A stretch of DNA of 57,773 nucleotides from Clostridia bacterium (GTDB lineage: Bacteria > Bacillota > Clostridia > Christensenellales > CAG-917): contig JAQUST010000003.1 of the NCBI GenBank assembly GCA_028710495.1, forward strand, positions 37,809-95,581, in the 5' to 3' direction. Shown here one piece after another: positions 12,212-20,048 of the stretch. The notes under the pieces were generated by a model. It worked only from the letters and a program-made list of their open reading frames with translations. It ran no database searches and was not told the DNA's origin. A program made the translations under genes and the position numbers. The stretch's first letter is position 1; every line of letters begins with the position of its first letter.

Positions 12212-14734
12212 ATGAGCCTTTTAGACAAAATCTATCAAGCTATATCCAATTTTTCGGGCAATTTCCCCGCAATTGACACTTCACTTTTGTATGCTATTTT
12301 ATTGAGCGCAATCGCTTTTTTGGCAGTAGTTTGCGGATTAATTTTTCTTTCAACCGGCTGCTACAAAATGCAAAAATGGTCAAAAAAAATTATTAAATAT
12401 TTGGCGATGATTCCTTCCATTTCGGAAGAAAATGAAGCGTATTTTACAAAAGAATGTTTCGGGAGCAAGTGCCCGAAAAATTTGAAAGAAAGCTGGCAAT
12501 CGTTTTTGAATGTACGTTTTGGTTACCCAAGTGAAATCGTAAGCGAAAATAAGGTTTTTGAAACTGAACGCAAGTTCTCTTCTTATCCTATGTTTTTGTT
12601 TGGCACTCTATCTTTGATTGTTATCGTGGTCATAGGCATTATGCTCACAAGTGCTGTTGCACTCAACACACTTTTTGTTGGAATGCTCATTGCTTTCGCT
12701 TTTGCAGTTTGTTTGGAGATAGTGCTATATTTTGCTTATCGCTTTCAGCAAAAGGTTGCTCTCACTGCGTTTCGTGATATGCAAGATGAGTTGGACGCAA
12801 AAATTTTGCTTCAAAATATGAAAGAATTTGTTGCCGACACCGCGGGACTTTCTGAAATTGCCAATGAACTTGAAAAAATAATAGCTAAAATTGAAAGAGT
12901 TAAAATTCCTGACAACTATGAAGACCTTGTCGGAGACGAAGTTGAAGCCGAATTGGTTTTTGAAGCGGAAGAGATACCGCAATCACAACTCAAAGCGGAA
13001 GAGATACCGCAATCACAACTCAAAGCGGAAGTAATGCCGAAACCAATGTCAAAAGTAGAAGATAAGACTGCCGCTGTTGATGAGCCATTGGCCGCAACTG
13101 TACAAAATCCTACAATTCTACGAAATAACGAACTGTCAAAAGGTGCGGGAAGTAAAGAACTTGAAGCGGAAATAATACCTAACGAAGAAATTGAGAAAGA
13201 AACAACTCCCAAAGAAGAAATTTTAAAAGAAATTGAAGTAACGGCAGAAGTGGTTGAAGCAAGCGACGAAAATGTGAGTGAAGAAAAAAATGAAAGAATC
13301 GACGAAAATCTTTTGAAAGTCGGACAAGACAAAACTGACGAAGTATCCGATGAAGAAGAGCTTGTTGCCGAGATAGAACAAGAAGAACCTGAAGAAATCA
13401 CGGACAAGGCAACGGACAATGCAGAAATTGAGATAGCAGAAGTTGAGATAGACAAAATAGAAAATGAAACAACTGCAAAAACAGTTGAAACATCAGCACC
13501 CAAAGAAACAACAGAATCCAAAGAAATAGCAGCACCAGAAGAAATAACAGACGCTGTAATTGAGGAAGAAGAAACCGAAGCGATTGAAGAAGCATTAGAA
13601 GCCGAGATAGTGGAAGCGGAAATTGAAACAATAGCAGAAGAAGAGATAGCTCAAATTTCCGAAACAGAAACTGAACATAATGAAATCGATAGCAATGTTG
13701 TTGTCGCAGATATAGCAGAGATTGAAGAACTTGAGGAAGTTGGAGTTTCTGATGACAACGATGCAGTTGTGACAAAAAATAAAAATGATGCAACTCAAAC
13801 AAATGTTGTTGCTGAAACAAAAGAAATTGAAAATATAGAAGAGACCAATACGAATGAGCAAGAAGAAGTCGTTGCTGAACTGGTGGAAGATGAGGAAAAA
13901 AATTCCGAAACAGAAAACGCAGAAGCAGAGTCTGACTATGCACAAGAATATGAAGTTGCTGAAGTTTTGGAAGCAGAAGTAGTAGCCGAAAATGAAGATG
14001 CTCAAACAATAAAGACCACAAACATCAAAGATGAAGATGCTCAAACAATAGAAACTACAATAGTTGAAGACAAAGAAATAATTGAAACAGCCGAAACAGA
14101 AACAGCCGAAGCTAAAAGCGCAGAGGTAAAGATTGAGAAAGAAGAAAACGAAAACTCAGAAATAGAAACGGCAGAAATCGAAGGCAATGATATTTCCGAA
14201 ACCGTCGAAACCGAAACCGTCGAAACCGAAATTGCCGAAATAAAAAATTCCAAAATCGAAATTGAGAAAGAAGAAAACGAAATAACAGCCGAAGAAGAAG
14301 TTGAAGTCTCAAGTGCCCAAAATTATAAAGAAACATTGCCGATTGTTGCTTTGAATGAAGGAACATCAACTGAAAATAAATCTCAAACTATTGATGAAAA
14401 TTCAGAAGAATTTGAGAATGAAGAAGATTTACACATTAAAAAAAAAGATGATGACAGCGATAACAACGAAATAGTGAGCGAAAACGAAAGTTTGAATGAC
14501 TTGTATGAAAATAATGAAGATAAAGAAGATACTGAAGTTGCTCCAAAACAAGCCAAACTTGCAAAACTTCCGCTATTTATGGACTATTGCGTTTCTCAAA
14601 ATCTAAAGCACGATACATATATCAAAGTCGCAAAAGTTTTGTTTATGGCGTACAATATTTATAAAAATTCACCTGAGAACAAAGACATTACACTTTTGTG
14701 TATTAAAAAGCTTATTCCTAAACTCAAATACTAG
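12212..14734 (+). CDS. membrane-anchored protein with long acidic tail and conserved C-terminal domain
   Basis: I do not recognise this 840-residue protein. Three hydrophobic segments (about residues 25-47, 126-149, 153-177) anchor it. Residues about 230-770 are almost entirely Glu, Ala, Ile, Val, Thr, Asn and Lys in repeated patterns such as AEIVEAEIE, strongly acidic and probably disordered or loosely helical. The last 60 residues (781-840) are different: KLAKLPLFMDYCV, then VAKVLFMAYNIYKNSPENKD, a compact helical domain found again at the end of the next gene. An exact 30-base duplication encodes AEEIPQSQLK twice near residue 255. AAGGAG precedes the ATG. A cytoplasmic scaffold or tether is a guess. 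Confidence 0.8.
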   Translation: MSLLDKIYQAISNFSGNFPAIDTSLLYAILLSAIAFLAVVCGLIFLSTGCYKMQKWSKKIIKYLAMIPSISEENEAYFTKECFGSKCPKNLKESWQSFLNVRFGYPSEIVSENKVFETERKFSSYPMFLFGTLSLIVIVVIGIMLTSAVALNTLFVGMLIAFAFAVCLEIVLYFAYRFQQKVALTAFRDMQDELDAKILLQNMKEFVADTAGLSEIANELEKIIAKIERVKIPDNYEDLVGDEVEAELVFEAEEIPQSQLKAEEIPQSQLKAEVMPKPMSKVEDKTAAVDEPLAATVQNPTILRNNELSKGAGSKELEAEIIPNEEIEKETTPKEEILKEIEVTAEVVEASDENVSEEKNERIDENLLKVGQDKTDEVSDEEELVAEIEQEEPEEITDKATDNAEIEIAEVEIDKIENETTAKTVETSAPKETTESKEIAAPEEITDAVIEEEETEAIEEALEAEIVEAEIETIAEEEIAQISETETEHNEIDSNVVVADIAEIEELEEVGVSDDNDAVVTKNKNDATQTNVVAETKEIENIEETNTNEQEEVVAELVEDEEKNSETENAEAESDYAQEYEVAEVLEAEVVAENEDAQTIKTTNIKDEDAQTIETTIVEDKEIIETAETETAEAKSAEVKIEKEENENSEIETAEIEGNDISETVETETVETEIAEIKNSKIEIEKEENEITAEEEVEVSSAQNYKETLPIVALNEGTSTENKSQTIDENSEEFENEEDLHIKKKDDDSDNNEIVSENESLNDLYENNEDKEDTEVAPKQAKLAKLPLFMDYCVSQNLKHDTYIKVAKVLFMAYNIYKNSPENKDITLLCIKKLIPKLKY
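12965..13024 (+). repeat. exact 30-base tandem duplication inside the acidic-protein gene
   Basis: Positions 12965-12994 and 12995-13024 are identical and encode AEEIPQSQLK twice. Shorter in-frame repeats follow, such as EDAQTI twice near 13995-14052 and a repeated IEKEENE segment near 14131 and 14260. Recent slippage or unequal exchange is still changing the tail length. Confidence 0.9.
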
Positions 14735-14813: not shown

Positions 14814-15728
14814 ATGTTTGGCAAGAAGAAAAACAAGCACGAGAATATCCTCGAGGCTGAGGTAATTATTGCAGACTCCGCCAAGGTTAGTGGCGAAAAA
14901 GTTCTGGAAGCCGTGGCTGAAGAAGAAGTTTTTGTGCAGGCAGAAATTGAAATGGATGTTGAGGCAGTCGCAGAAGAGAATATCGTTGCAGAAGTAGAAC
15001 CTGAAGAAGAAATAGAATTTTTGGATTCAGAAATTGATGTCGAACTGGACAAAATAGAAATGGTTCAGTTTGAAGAAGAAAAAACTGCTGAAGCAGAGAA
15101 GATAGCCGAAGCATCGCGCAAGATTGCTGAAGCTGCGCAAAAGCTTGCTGAGACTGTGCACGAAGAAGATGCAGGAGTTAAACTCGCAAATGAAAATGAT
15201 GAAGAGAAATCTATCGCAGAAAGCAAAGAAGAGATAAAATCAGTTGAAGAAGACAAACAAGAAAAATCTGACAGTGACAAGCTAGTTGAAGAAAAGAAAG
15301 AGGACGCAAATAAATTTGAAATCAAAAGTGAAACGGCAGAGCTTGAAGCAATTATTTTGGAAGCGGAACTTGTTGAAGATGAAAATTCCGAAGCCGATGA
15401 AAACGAAGCAAAGTTGGTGGTTTCAGGTCTAATTCAAGAAGTTAAATCCGATGACAAACCCGAAACAAAAGAGGTTGAGACGGCGGATGACGGAAATTCG
15501 GATTTAGATGATGATGAAACTCCGAAGCCTGCAAAACTTGCAAAACTCCCGTTGTTTATAGATTATTGTGTCACGCAGAATTTGAAATTTAAGACTTATG
15601 TTAAAGTTGCAAAAGTTTTAATTATGGCATTTGGTATGTACAAAAATTCGCCTGAGAATAAAGATATTGTTTTGAGTTGCATCAAAAAACTTATTCCTGC
15701 ACTTGTTGCCTCAAAAGCAAGAAAATAG
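14814..15728 (+). CDS. soluble acidic paralogue sharing the same C-terminal domain
   Basis: This 304-residue protein starts with a basic MFGKKKNKHEN, continues with a Glu/Ala/Val-rich acidic region (residues 15-235, with patterns like KIAEASRKIAEAAQKLAE that should form amphipathic helix), and ends in the domain of the preceding gene: KLAKLPLFIDYCVTQNLK and VAKVLIMAFGMYKNSPENKD, residues 240-304. It has no membrane segment, so the pair comprises a membrane form and a soluble form. AAGGAG lies 6 bases before the ATG; the gap to the previous gene is 79 bases with no terminator, so cotranscription is likely. Function unknown; partner binding through the shared domain is inference. Confidence 0.8.
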   Translation: MFGKKKNKHENILEAEVIIADSAKVSGEKVLEAVAEEEVFVQAEIEMDVEAVAEENIVAEVEPEEEIEFLDSEIDVELDKIEMVQFEEEKTAEAEKIAEASRKIAEAAQKLAETVHEEDAGVKLANENDEEKSIAESKEEIKSVEEDKQEKSDSDKLVEEKKEDANKFEIKSETAELEAIILEAELVEDENSEADENEAKLVVSGLIQEVKSDDKPETKEVETADDGNSDLDDDETPKPAKLAKLPLFIDYCVTQNLKFKTYVKVAKVLIMAFGMYKNSPENKDIVLSCIKKLIPALVASKARK

Positions 15729-16159: not shown

Positions 16160-17113
16160 TTATTTGAACATCTTCTTTTTGAACATAATCACGCCAGTGA
16201 CAATACAAAGCACGAGAGAAATGCCTATAACAATCCAAAAACCATAAGGTTTGCCTTCCCACGGAACACCGGTATTCATTCCCCAAAATGCAGCAATCAT
16301 TGACGGAACTGCAATCATAATTGTGATGAGTGTGAGAACTTTCATAACAATGTTCAAATTATTTGATATGAGTGATGCGTATGCATCCATTGTCCCACTC
16401 AAAATATCACGGTAAATGTTACACATTTCAATAGCTTGTCTGTTTTCAATCCCGACATCTTCCCACAAATCCTTATCTTCCTCATAAAAATCAGTGACCT
16501 TCGGCAACTTGTCTAGAACTACTGTGTTTGAGCGGAGAGAAGTGGAGAAGTAAACAAGAGATGTTTCAAGCTCCAACATTTCAATAAGCTCTTTATTTTT
16601 CATCGATTTTTCGAGTTCCGCTTGAATTCGCTGTGAAGTTTTGTCAATCTGCTTTAAGTATTGCAAATATTTCGTGGACACTCTATACAAAAATTGAAGT
16701 AGAAAACGAGTGCGCTTGTTTATTGAAACATTTTTTACGCGTCCAAAAATAAAGTCATTAATAAGGGTGGTGTCGTTTATGCAAACGGTTACCACTAGTT
16801 TGTCGGTGACAATAAATCCAAATGGCAAAGTGGAATAAGTGTAGCGGTCATCATCCTCTTCAATAATTGGAATATCAGTGATTGTGAGAGTGATGTTTTC
16901 CTCTGTTTCAATACGTGGGCGCTCTTCTTCATCCAAAGCTGCTTTTATCATTTCTTCGGGAATAGCACAAAGACGAGAGATAAGTTCAATCTCTTTATCT
17001 GTCGGGTTCGACAAATGCACCCAATGGTTTGAAAAATCAAATTGGTCTGTGATAAGTTCGAAAGGGGTTTGATGGAGAGTTCTCTCCTTGTCATTATTGA
17101 AAATTTGAATCAT
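16160..17113 (-). CDS. corA: CorA-family divalent cation (magnesium) transporter
   Basis: CorA forms a homopentameric channel for Mg2+ (sometimes Co2+ or Ni2+) in the inner membrane. The 317-residue protein has the long soluble N-terminal domain, an extended helix, and two C-terminal membrane segments. The first ends in the selectivity signature GMN (residues 278-280, FWGMNTGVPWEG) and the tail is basic (FKKKMFK), all standard. Length is normal. The ATG has AAGGAGG 5 bases upstream. An unusual 5' leader with a short ORF and a terminator hairpin lies before it. It ends convergently with the acidic-protein genes and is divergent from ppdK. Confidence 0.92.
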   Translation of the reverse strand: MIQIFNNDKERTLHQTPFELITDQFDFSNHWVHLSNPTDKEIELISRLCAIPEEMIKAALDEEERPRIETEENITLTITDIPIIEEDDDRYTYSTLPFGFIVTDKLVVTVCINDTTLINDFIFGRVKNVSINKRTRFLLQFLYRVSTKYLQYLKQIDKTSQRIQAELEKSMKNKELIEMLELETSLVYFSTSLRSNTVVLDKLPKVTDFYEEDKDLWEDVGIENRQAIEMCNIYRDILSGTMDAYASLISNNLNIVMKVLTLITIMIAVPSMIAAFWGMNTGVPWEGKPYGFWIVIGISLVLCIVTGVIMFKKKMFK

Positions 17114-17130
17114 TTTGCGCCTCCTTAAAT

Positions 17131-17156
17131 AAAAAAGTACAGCGAGAACACTGTAC
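17131..17156 (-). terminator. leader terminator upstream of corA (attenuator)
   Basis: On the minus strand GTACAGTG (17149-17156) pairs with CGCTGTAC (17137-17144) around TTCT, followed by TTTTTT. The hairpin lies between the leader ORF and the corA ribosome site, so it would stop transcription before corA unless prevented. Confidence 0.8.
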
Positions 17157-17164
17157 CAAAGGGA

Positions 17165-17211
17165 GACCTTATAGTACGAGTGTCTTAATTTTTGTTGCTA
17201 CTCAAAGGGTC
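17165..17211 (-). promoter_or_regulatory. anti-terminator and competing stem of the corA leader
   Basis: CACTCGTAC (minus strand, 17174-17182) can pair with the terminator's 5' arm GTACAGTG over eight pairs with one bulge, which would prevent termination. TACTATAAGGTC (17165-17176), overlapping that segment by three bases, can instead pair with GACCCTTTGAGTA inside the leader ORF (17199-17211). These are alternative structures of the attenuator type, paired by eye and not folded by program. Confidence 0.5.
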
Positions 17212-17220
17212 AGCATCCAT
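17185..17220 (-). CDS. corA leader peptide MDADPLSSNKN
   Basis: An 11-codon ORF with a good ribosome site (GAGGTG, 7 bases before the ATG) lies at the start of the corA transcript. It reads MDADPLSSNKN. An acidic-proline stretch close to the N-terminus recalls EPDP of the enterobacterial MgtL leader, where low Mg2+ destabilises ribosomes and switches on a Mg2+ transporter. The ORF's aspartate-proline codons fall inside one arm of the alternative hairpins before corA. The peptide is probably only a sensor of ribosome behaviour. Confidence 0.6.
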   Translation of the reverse strand: MDADPLSSNKN

Positions 17221-17251
17221 ACTTTTACACCTCATAGTATATTTCTTTTTC

Positions 17252-17280
17252 ATATTAACAAAATAAAATAGATTTGGCAA
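17252..17280 (-). promoter_or_regulatory. promoter of the corA leader transcript
   Basis: Minus-strand TTGCCA (17275-17280) and TAATAT (17252-17257) are 17 bases apart. Transcription would start about 15 bases before the leader ORF's ribosome site. Confidence 0.6.
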
Positions 17281-17405: not shown

Positions 17406-20048
17406 ATGAAGAAATTTGTATATCTTTTCAAAGAAGCCAGTGAAACTGAATGCGACAGAAGAGCTATGTTTGGTGGAAAAGGTGCGAACCTTGCTGAAAT
17501 GACAAAGCTCGGTATGCCAGTCCCACAAGGCTTTACCATTACCACAGAGGCTTGCACACAATATTATGTTGACGGCGAAAGCATCAATGAAGAAATTCAA
17601 GCCCAAATTATGGAAAATATTGCGAAGTTGGAGAAAGTAGTCGGCAAAAAATTTGGTGACCTTGACAATCCGCTTTTGGTTTCTGTTCGTTCAGGAGCAA
17701 GAGCTTCAATGCCAGGCATGATGGATACAATTTTGAACCTTGGAATGAATGACGAAGTTGTTGAGCGTTTTGCAGTCAAAACAAACAATCGTCGTTTTGC
17801 TTATGATTCATATCGTCGTTTCATCCAAATGTACAGCGATGTTGTTATGGAAGTCGGCAAGAAATTCTTTGAAGCACACATCGATGCATTAAAAGAGAAG
17901 AAAGGCGTCAAACTTGACACCGAACTTGATGCAGACGATTTGAAACAACTCGCAAATGAGTTTAAAGCTGAATATAAAGCAAAAATTGGCAAAGAATTCC
18001 CACAAGATCCAAAAGAACAACTTATGGGCGCAATCAAAGCCGTTTTCCGTTCATGGGACAATCCACGCGCAATATATTACAGAAGAATGAATGACATCCC
18101 AGGTGATTGGGGCACAGCAGTCAGCGTTCAAATGATGGTATTTGGCAATATGGGAAATACTTCAGGCACTGGCGTTGCATTCTCACGCAATCCATCAACC
18201 GGCGAAAAAGGCTTATACGGCGAATATTTGATGAATGCACAAGGCGAAGATGTTGTCGCAGGCGTCAGAACACCACTTACTATCGACCAGTTGAAGAAAG
18301 AAAATACAGCTGTGTATGAGCAATTCAAGGCAATCGTTGAAAGACTTGAAAAGCATTACAGAGATATGCAAGATATGGAGTTCACCATCGAAGAAGGCAA
18401 ACTCTTTATGCTTCAAACCAGAAACGGCAAGCGTACAGCAGCTGCAGCATTGCAAATTGCTTGTGACCTTGTTGACGAAGGAATGATAACCGAAAAAGAA
18501 GCTATTTTGATGATTGACCCGAAACAACTTGATGCACTATTGCACCCACAATTTGATGTTGCAACTCTTAAAGCCGCGGCACCAATCGGATGCGCACTTC
18601 CAGCATCACCAGGCGCAGCTTGTGGCAAAGTTGTCTTTACAGCAGAAGACGCAACAGACTGGGTTGTAAACAAGAAAGAAAAAGTCGTTTTGGTCAGACT
18701 TGAAACATCACCTGAAGATATTGAAGGTATGCATTATGCACAAGGCATCTTGACAGTTCGTGGAGGTATGACATCACACGCAGCAGTTGTTGCCCGTGGT
18801 ATGGGTACTTGCTGTGTATCAGGTTGTGGCGAAATCAAAATTGATGAAGATAAGAAAGTTTTCTCACTTGGCGGAGTCACATTCCACGAGGGAGACTGGC
18901 TTTCACTTGACGGCTCAACAGGCAAAATATATCAAGGACAAATCAAGACTGTCTCAGCAACAGTTTCCGGAAACTTCGGAAGATTGATGGCATGGGCAGA
19001 CAAATATCGTGCTTTGCAAGTTAGAACAAACGCAGACACTCCAAAAGATGCAAGACAAGCAAAAGCATTTGGAGCAGAAGGTATTGGTCTTTGCCGTACA
19101 GAGCATATGTTCTTTGCACCTGAAAGAATTGCAGCAATGCGTGAAATGATTGTTTCTGACACAGTTGAACAAAGAGAAACAGCACTTGCAAAATTGCTCC
19201 CAATGCAACAAAGCGACTTTGAAGGTCTCTATGAAGCTTTGGAAGGCTCACCAGTTACAATTCGTTTCTTGGACCCACCACTTCACGAGTTTGTCCCAAC
19301 AGATGAACAAGAAATAATAGCTCTTGCAAAAGAGATGAAAATGGATGTTCAAGATTTGAAGGATGTTATCACTTCACTTCACGAGTTCAACCCAATGATG
19401 GGTCACCGTGGTTGCAGACTTGCTGTCACATATCCAGAAATTGCAGTTATGCAAACAAAAGCTGTTATTCAAGCGGCTCTTGCAGTCAAAGCAAAGCATG
19501 CAGATTGGAACGTTGTTCCTGAAATTATGATTCCATTGGTTGGTGAAATCAAGGAATTGCAATATGTTAAATCAATCGTGACAAAGACAGCTGATGAATG
19601 CATCGCTAAATCTGGCACAGATTTGCATTACAAAGTCGGAACAATGATTGAAATTCCAAGAGCAGCTATCACAGCTGACGAAATTGCAAAGGATGCGGAA
19701 TTCTTCTCATTCGGAACAAATGATTTGACACAAATGACATTCGGCTTCAGCCGTGATGATGCAGGCAAGTTCCTTGGCGCATATTATGAGAAGAAGATTT
19801 ACGAATCAGATCCATTTGCAAGACTTGATCAAGCAGGCGTTGGCAAGCTTATGAAGATTGCTTGTGAACTTGGAAGACAAACTCGCCCTGACATCAAACT
19901 CGGTATCTGCGGAGAACATGGTGGCGACCCGTCAACTATAGAGTTCTGCCACAACATCGGCTTGTCATATGTTTCATGTTCACCATTCAGAGTACCGATC
20001 GCAAGACTTGCAGCAGCACAGGCTAACCTTAGAAATCCTCGCAAGTAA
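17406..20048 (+). CDS. ppdK: pyruvate, phosphate dikinase
   Basis: PPDK interconverts pyruvate, ATP and Pi with phosphoenolpyruvate, AMP and PPi; in anaerobes it often works with PPi-linked glycolysis or in the gluconeogenic direction. The 880-residue protein has the N-terminal nucleotide-binding domain (MFGGKGANLAEM), the swivelling phosphohistidine domain with H458 in GGMTSHAAVVARGMG, and the PEP/pyruvate barrel ending in GICGEHGGDPSTIEF with the catalytic Cys near 835. Length is normal. GGAGG is 9 bases before the ATG. A strong terminator follows directly, so the gene stands alone. Its wording uses more preferred codons than its neighbours, consistent with high expression. Confidence 0.96.
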   Translation: MKKFVYLFKEASETECDRRAMFGGKGANLAEMTKLGMPVPQGFTITTEACTQYYVDGESINEEIQAQIMENIAKLEKVVGKKFGDLDNPLLVSVRSGARASMPGMMDTILNLGMNDEVVERFAVKTNNRRFAYDSYRRFIQMYSDVVMEVGKKFFEAHIDALKEKKGVKLDTELDADDLKQLANEFKAEYKAKIGKEFPQDPKEQLMGAIKAVFRSWDNPRAIYYRRMNDIPGDWGTAVSVQMMVFGNMGNTSGTGVAFSRNPSTGEKGLYGEYLMNAQGEDVVAGVRTPLTIDQLKKENTAVYEQFKAIVERLEKHYRDMQDMEFTIEEGKLFMLQTRNGKRTAAAALQIACDLVDEGMITEKEAILMIDPKQLDALLHPQFDVATLKAAAPIGCALPASPGAACGKVVFTAEDATDWVVNKKEKVVLVRLETSPEDIEGMHYAQGILTVRGGMTSHAAVVARGMGTCCVSGCGEIKIDEDKKVFSLGGVTFHEGDWLSLDGSTGKIYQGQIKTVSATVSGNFGRLMAWADKYRALQVRTNADTPKDARQAKAFGAEGIGLCRTEHMFFAPERIAAMREMIVSDTVEQRETALAKLLPMQQSDFEGLYEALEGSPVTIRFLDPPLHEFVPTDEQEIIALAKEMKMDVQDLKDVITSLHEFNPMMGHRGCRLAVTYPEIAVMQTKAVIQAALAVKAKHADWNVVPEIMIPLVGEIKELQYVKSIVTKTADECIAKSGTDLHYKVGTMIEIPRAAITADEIAKDAEFFSFGTNDLTQMTFGFSRDDAGKFLGAYYEKKIYESDPFARLDQAGVGKLMKIACELGRQTRPDIKLGICGEHGGDPSTIEFCHNIGLSYVSCSPFRVPIARLAAAQANLRNPRK

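Follow-up and report, generated by a model that had tools for sequence, protein, structure and literature searches.

A probable leader-peptide attenuator upstream of corA in a Clostridia bacterium and the widespread M-x-x-D-P leader family of Mg2+ transporter genes

The corA gene of a Clostridia bacterium is probably controlled by a translation-sensing attenuator, whose leader would belong to a widespread and apparently undescribed family of M-x-x-D-P leaders preceding Mg2+ transporter genes in Clostridia and other Bacillota. The gene lies in a stretch of 57,773 nt that was analysed as a whole (hereafter the window). In the literature that we searched, Mg2+ sensing by a hard-to-translate leader peptide has been described only in enterobacteria, where it works with Rho. 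This peptide register is now found again in a distant phylum, upstream of two unrelated transporter families and with outputs that are simple enough for reconstitution. With about a hundred natural variants, these leaders lend themselves to studying what makes ribosomes fail at low Mg2+, and they point to a way in which gut Clostridia that lack an M-box may control Mg2+ uptake.

All parts of the corA leader lie on the minus strand, in the order promoter, Shine–Dalgarno (SD) sequence, open reading frame (ORF), arms, terminator and corA. An earlier note on this DNA, which gave no strand, had described an 11-codon ORF with a ribosome site, a terminator and corA, and all of these are present. The ORF (17185..17220; ATG at 17220, stop codon TAA at 17187-17185) encodes MDADPLSSNKN behind the SD sequence GAGGTG (17228..17233), and its Asp4-Pro5 codons are GAC CCT (17211-17206). 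Arm 1, the 5' arm of the antiterminator, begins immediately past the stop codon (17167..17184); arm 2, its 3' arm (17147..17162), overlaps the 5' arm of the terminator. The latter, found by scanning and folding, is an intrinsic hairpin, GGTACAGTG TTCT CGCTGTACT (17136..17157), with a perfect 8-bp stem (GTACAGTG/CGCTGTAC). It is followed by the T run TTTTTTATTT (17127..17136), the corA SD sequence AAGGAGG (17120..17126) and corA itself (16160..17113), which encodes a 317-aa Mg2+ channel (Pfam PF01544, E = 1.8e-52). The promoter that had also been proposed holds by its position only: TTGCCA (17280-17275), a 17-nt spacer and TG plus TAATAT (17257-17252) make up a well placed candidate at 17252..17280, but such consensus matches are no commoner than in shuffled sequences. 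A pyruvate phosphate dikinase gene (17406-20048) is divergent from the leader. In a search of the window's own genome, a draft of 1.57 Mb in 39 contigs, the product of 16160..17113 was the sole CorA detected, and neither MgtE nor an M-box was detected; this absence is not final, since the draft is about 91% complete.

The spacer between the leader ORF and corA encodes two mutually exclusive hairpins. Arm 1 pairs with arm 2 (17184-17167 with 17162-17147) at −15.3 kcal/mol, compared with −9.8 kcal/mol for the terminator stem; the pairing of a segment after the ORF with the 5' arm of the terminator, which the earlier note had seen, is thus part of a longer antiterminator. None of 1000 shuffles matched the arm 1–arm 2 duplex, and just 0.5% of shuffled spacers held the terminator off equally well. 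To follow the effect of translation, the ribosome was modelled as a mask on the RNA up to a given edge and the remaining RNA was refolded, which gives equilibrium folds without RNA polymerase kinetics. The predicted probability of the terminator is 0.06 in the free leader, 0.08 with a ribosome at Asp-Pro and 0.07 with the edge at stop+3, and it rises to 0.98 at stop+6 and 0.999 at stop+15, in agreement with the proposal that a ribosome reaching the stop codon favours termination. The modelled leader therefore behaves as a ribosome-mediated transcription attenuator would: the position of the ribosome selects between antiterminator and terminator, and in these folds the outcome is decided once a ribosome arriving at the stop codon masks arm 1. 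A ribosome at the leader stop codon would cover arm 1 (17184-17167), arm 2 would then join the terminator and corA transcription would stop. With no ribosome, or none beyond Asp4-Pro5, arm 1 would pair with arm 2 and transcription would continue into corA. Stalling and drop-off at Asp-Pro have identical predicted outputs and are indistinguishable by sequence.

The same folds bear on a trp-type arrangement, in which stalling at Asp-Pro would place the ribosome over an ORF arm that otherwise sequesters the antiterminator. The earlier note had taken this to be how the antiterminator is freed, and the pairing that it proposed, 17165-17176 with the ORF, can indeed be drawn; the ORF plus arm 1 folds at −6.7 kcal/mol, and some relatives (L074, L081 and L094 among them) have a corA SD that is less accessible in the ribosome-free leader than with the first codons masked. 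Nevertheless, the pairing is at chance level, both in the window, where 21% of shuffles are as good, and in the family, where its mean z is −0.24 compared with −1.58 for arm 1 and arm 2, and it was rejected as the switch. Moreover, the free leader already adopts the antiterminator, so that no halted ribosome is needed to release it, and the leaders of six relatives are short enough for the corA SD to fall within the leader ORF, which leaves no room for such arms. We consider the trp-type arrangement unlikely, and prefer the switch in which the ribosome at the stop codon masks arm 1.

The peptide is conserved well beyond the window. We gathered CorA relatives from 60 related genomes and GTDB contigs, with CorA identities as low as 43%, and obtained 97 distinct upstream regions. 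An ORF of the form M..[DE]P with a good SD is present within 200 nt upstream of corA in 73 of the 97, which bears out the expected conservation of a short acidic-proline ORF; in the shuffle control, 71 of 96 real upstream regions carried such a leader, compared with 0.01 among shuffled ones. Many of the remaining upstream regions have variants at the same place (MDSDYRSSQ, MEADARSSHH, MSSDYHSQ, MEDHPRSK), and in one (L018) MEADPFSSNFF is located farther upstream of corA. When the variants are included (87 leaders), Asp4 is found in 83 and Pro5 in 76, residue 3 is nearly always Ala, Ser or Pro, residue 7 is mainly Ser or Gly, and the rest is free; D4-P5 is thus almost invariant while the other peptide positions drift. 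The two residues are encoded by GACCCT (40), GATCCT (11), GACCCG (8), GACCCA (6), GACCCC (5) and GATCCG (2), and this synonymous variation argues that selection acts on the peptide. Most relatives have GAGGTG or GGAGGTG as the SD upstream of the leader ORF. Judged from its sequence, with an SD, a start codon, synonymous Asp and Pro codons and conservation, the short ORF has what would be expected of the leader ORF of a ribosome-mediated attenuator. The evidence supports the view that the window leader attenuates corA through a leader peptide in which Asp-Pro is the conserved element.

Two features of the peptide deserve separate mention. The first is that Pro5 is missing in 11 of the 87 leaders (for example MDSDYRSSQ) and is therefore not strictly required. 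In one group of relatives (L005, L006, L009, L012, L014-L016) it is replaced by Tyr, His or Cys, as MDS-D-[YHC]-RS[SC], and Asp4, the frame and the arms are retained; these relatives provide a natural test of the need for proline. The second is codon 7 (17202-17200 in the window). Ser is encoded by AGT in 40 of 41 leaders from many lineages, and Gly mainly by GGG; this bias is a nucleotide-level constraint beyond what the peptide or the arms account for.

Among the relatives, the arm sequences diverge but the pairing is retained, and the RNA outside the ORF start is unalignable. As expected of covarying stems, arm 1 and arm 2 of 20 relatives gave 12 two-sided cells, compared with 4.4 when shuffled (0 of 500 shuffles as good). 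An RNAalifold consensus across the arms mostly failed, because the arm register varies between clades. These properties also bear on whether the element could be a metal-binding riboswitch in which the ORF is incidental. The gene does encode a Mg2+ transporter, and both the M-box and gammaproteobacterial corA motifs exist. However, Rfam covariance models gave no family covering the window leader, consistent with the expectation that no known metal riboswitch occupies these bases, nor did any cover the relatives' leaders that were scanned; there is no conserved aptamer, with arms that differ in sequence yet pair, and the ORF start is under selection at the peptide level. A riboswitch is accordingly the least probable of the readings considered here, and the conserved ORF is better taken as the sensing part of an attenuator.

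The output device differs among relatives. In most of them, arm 3 is the corA SD and not a terminator half; because most of the window's close relatives use SD sequestration, the intrinsic terminator is a minority platform. Besides the window, intrinsic terminators are found in L050, L051 and L024. In the abort state, the modelled probability of the terminator is about 0.5 in L050 and L051, and it reaches 1.0 with a ribosome at the stop codon; in L024 the terminator remains stable at equilibrium whichever state is modelled. For the SD, we used the opening energy as the measure, as the mean probability of openness was judged too blunt. In the short-ORF relatives (n = 40, four terminator types included), a ribosome at the stop codon makes the corA SD costlier to open than it is in the abort state, by +3.1 kcal/mol compared with −0.3 in shuffles (p = 2e-8, Wilcoxon test, which ignores relatedness). 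As long as the edge has not passed the stop codon, their mean cost is about 5.4 kcal/mol; it peaks at 8.2 kcal/mol with the edge 15 nt past the start of the stop codon, which is the expected footprint, and then drops. In the long-ORF relatives (n = 41), the cost starts at 3.0 kcal/mol and reaches at most 7.8 kcal/mol while the ribosome moves forward, which is an increase of 4.8 compared with 1.1 kcal/mol in shuffles (p = 5e-8, by the same test, which again ignores relatedness). In a further group, the six relatives with the corA SD within the leader ORF itself, it lies about 44 nt in. Terminator, SD sequestration and ORF overlap thus appear to follow one logic, in which passage beyond Asp-Pro turns the transporter OFF and failure there turns it ON.

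Since the leader ORF ends near or overlaps the corA start in some relatives, constitutive translational coupling or insulation without regulation was also considered. The window ORF, however, ends 71 nt upstream of corA; conservation extends to the alternative arms, whose switching coincides with the ribosome footprint, and D4-P5 hardly varies in a peptide that otherwise drifts. Unregulated coupling seems very unlikely on these grounds, and regulation by the position of the ribosome is preferred.

The association with Mg2+ transporters also emerges without knowledge of the genes. We searched 291 genomes of the class with a DNA pattern of SD, start codon and x-x-D-P that uses no gene information, with the reversed pattern as the control. 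The first pattern gave 19 matches compared with 8 for the reversed pattern; 13 are directly upstream of corA, two are upstream of genes with an MgtE_N domain, three are within long reading frames and one (L122) is upstream of no Mg2+ gene. A second pattern gave 31 matches compared with 6. It again matched the known mgtE locus L117, and of the 29 new loci that were read, 18 are upstream of corA (two of them at one and the same position), the N-terminus of a CNNM/CorC protein accounts for three and the remainder are mainly within long frames. Phylum-wide, the matches mostly arise by chance within long genes, above all where the genome is GC-rich, and only a minority are upstream of corA or mgtE; additional mgtE leaders and one corA leader were obtained in this way. 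Among the best-scoring loci of the class by Pfam profile, the motif is present in only about one in four corA loci (7 of 29) and in 2 of 30 mgtE loci, compared with 0.05 expected. D-P leaders were found upstream of mgtE at L113, L117, L147, L157, L158, L159, L160 and L239. Several of these have a layout of arm 1, arm 2 and SD like that of corA, for example GGGGGGAGGA ... TCCTCCCTCC ... GGAAGGGAGGA in L159.

In two genomes, the leader is stacked with an M-box. An M-box aptamer (Rfam, above the gathering threshold) comes first, a D-P leader second and corA last, with the M-box at 866-1074 and the leader (MDIDPYPNY...) from 1157 onward in L219, and on the minus strand the M-box at 2992-2826 and the leader (MDADPHTNS...) from 2662 onward in L227. 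The M-box has its own terminator-like hairpin in both, giving two Mg2+ sensors per leader.

Two further occurrences of the motif were noted. In three genomes of one family (G745, G304, G847), a CNNM/CorC protein itself starts with MDPDPNG behind an SD (L194, 1515-2831; L195, 186-1514, minus strand; L196). The CNNM/CorC family has Mg2+ exporters among its members, and a start that fails at low Mg2+ would therefore reduce export. In L144 and L145, loci of two genomes, a conserved 63-codon frame beginning MDADP[EG]PQ(M/L) lies about 220 nt upstream of the gene for a 430-aa membrane protein, for which no Pfam match was found within its first 90 residues.

That the leader responds to Mg2+ is suggested by analogy, from its association with transporters, the register that it has in common with MgtL and the M-box tandems. 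In the MgtL peptide, ribosomes drop off at low Mg2+ because of Glu2 and Asp4 in EPDP (PMC11282234). Complete translation of the upstream ORF represses mgtA and corA, and efficient translation of corL represses E. coli corA (PMC11552253). By the same token, ribosomes at low Mg2+ would pause or fall off at M-x-x-D-P, as at the enteric EPDP, and corA would be ON; with ample Mg2+ they would complete the ORF and corA would be OFF. Given that this Asp-Pro mini-gene recurs upstream of both CorA and MgtE in Clostridia and related bacteria, Mg2+ is probably sensed through the ribosome coping with one difficult peptide. A signal other than Mg2+, such as the supply of prolyl- or aspartyl-tRNA, the status of EF-P or an ABCF factor, or general translation stress, would also act through this peptide, as any slowing of the ORF affects the output, and Asp-Pro stalls B. 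subtilis ribosomes without EF-P and is eased by EF-P and YfmR (PMC11381351). Against such a signal, there is a single Asp-Pro pair and no codon run, the Pro-less variants retain Asp4, the controlled genes belong to two unrelated families of Mg2+ transporters, and the Mg2+ riboswitch M-box is in the same leader in two genomes. This alternative is rather unlikely, albeit the least improbable of those considered, and Mg2+ remains the favoured signal. Going further, M-x-x-D-P may well be a general translation-based Mg2+ sensor in Bacillota, covering CorA, MgtE, M-box tandems and at least three unrelated output devices, and either convergent with or older than enteric MgtL; we hold this broader claim with less confidence than the attenuator itself.

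There are similarities and distinguishable differences between this leader and the known systems. Like MgtL (mgtA of Salmonella and E. coli), it has a very short ORF, complete translation of which is predicted to repress a Mg2+ transporter gene, and an acidic-proline motif within the first five residues. The register is E2-P3-D4-P5 in MgtL and x2-[A/S/P]3-D4-P5 in this family, with several class members reading M-D-x-D-P-x-P. The output of MgtL is Rho-dependent termination and its gene encodes a P-type ATPase, whereas the Bacillota family uses an intrinsic terminator, SD sequestration or ORF overlap, and its genes encode CorA (in the window) and both CorA and MgtE among the gene-blind matches. 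Since the window carries an intrinsic terminator, its leader is not a member of the MgtL family and only works like one. CorL is likewise an upstream ORF of enteric corA, with translation inversely related to corA expression (PMC11552253), but it is Rho-dependent, has few acidic or Pro residues and differs in peptide and RNA. The MgtQ upstream ORF (Salmonella mgtC-mgtB) is also a translation-aborting short ORF that uses an inhibitory stem-loop to govern how a Mg2+ transporter is translated (PMC8092293), but is intergenic within an operon, enteric and of other sequence. The corA RNA motif (Stav et al. 2019) is a cis element upstream of corA as well, but is a structured-RNA candidate reported only from Gammaproteobacteria (PMC6429828). 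The M-box (ykoK, RF00380) controls Mg2+ transporters in Bacillota and is stacked with the D-P leader in the two tandems; however, its RNA binds Mg2+ directly, and it is absent from the window leader. A trp/his-type amino-acid starvation attenuator does not match a single Asp-Pro pair with a transporter as the target. The leader works like MgtL and CorL, but with Rho-independent outputs, other transporters and in another phylum. The suggestion that no Clostridial corA control of this type has been described agrees with the full-text literature, in which, with subscription journals and preprints outside its scope, only enteric systems were found; the Clostridial leader is therefore regarded as a hitherto undescribed form of this known type of control.

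Elsewhere in the window, two adjoining proteins encoded on the plus strand (12212-14734 and 14814-15728) have long acidic Glu/Ala/Val repeats and a common C-terminal domain (...AKLAKLPLFxDYCVxQNLK...), an apparent duplication.
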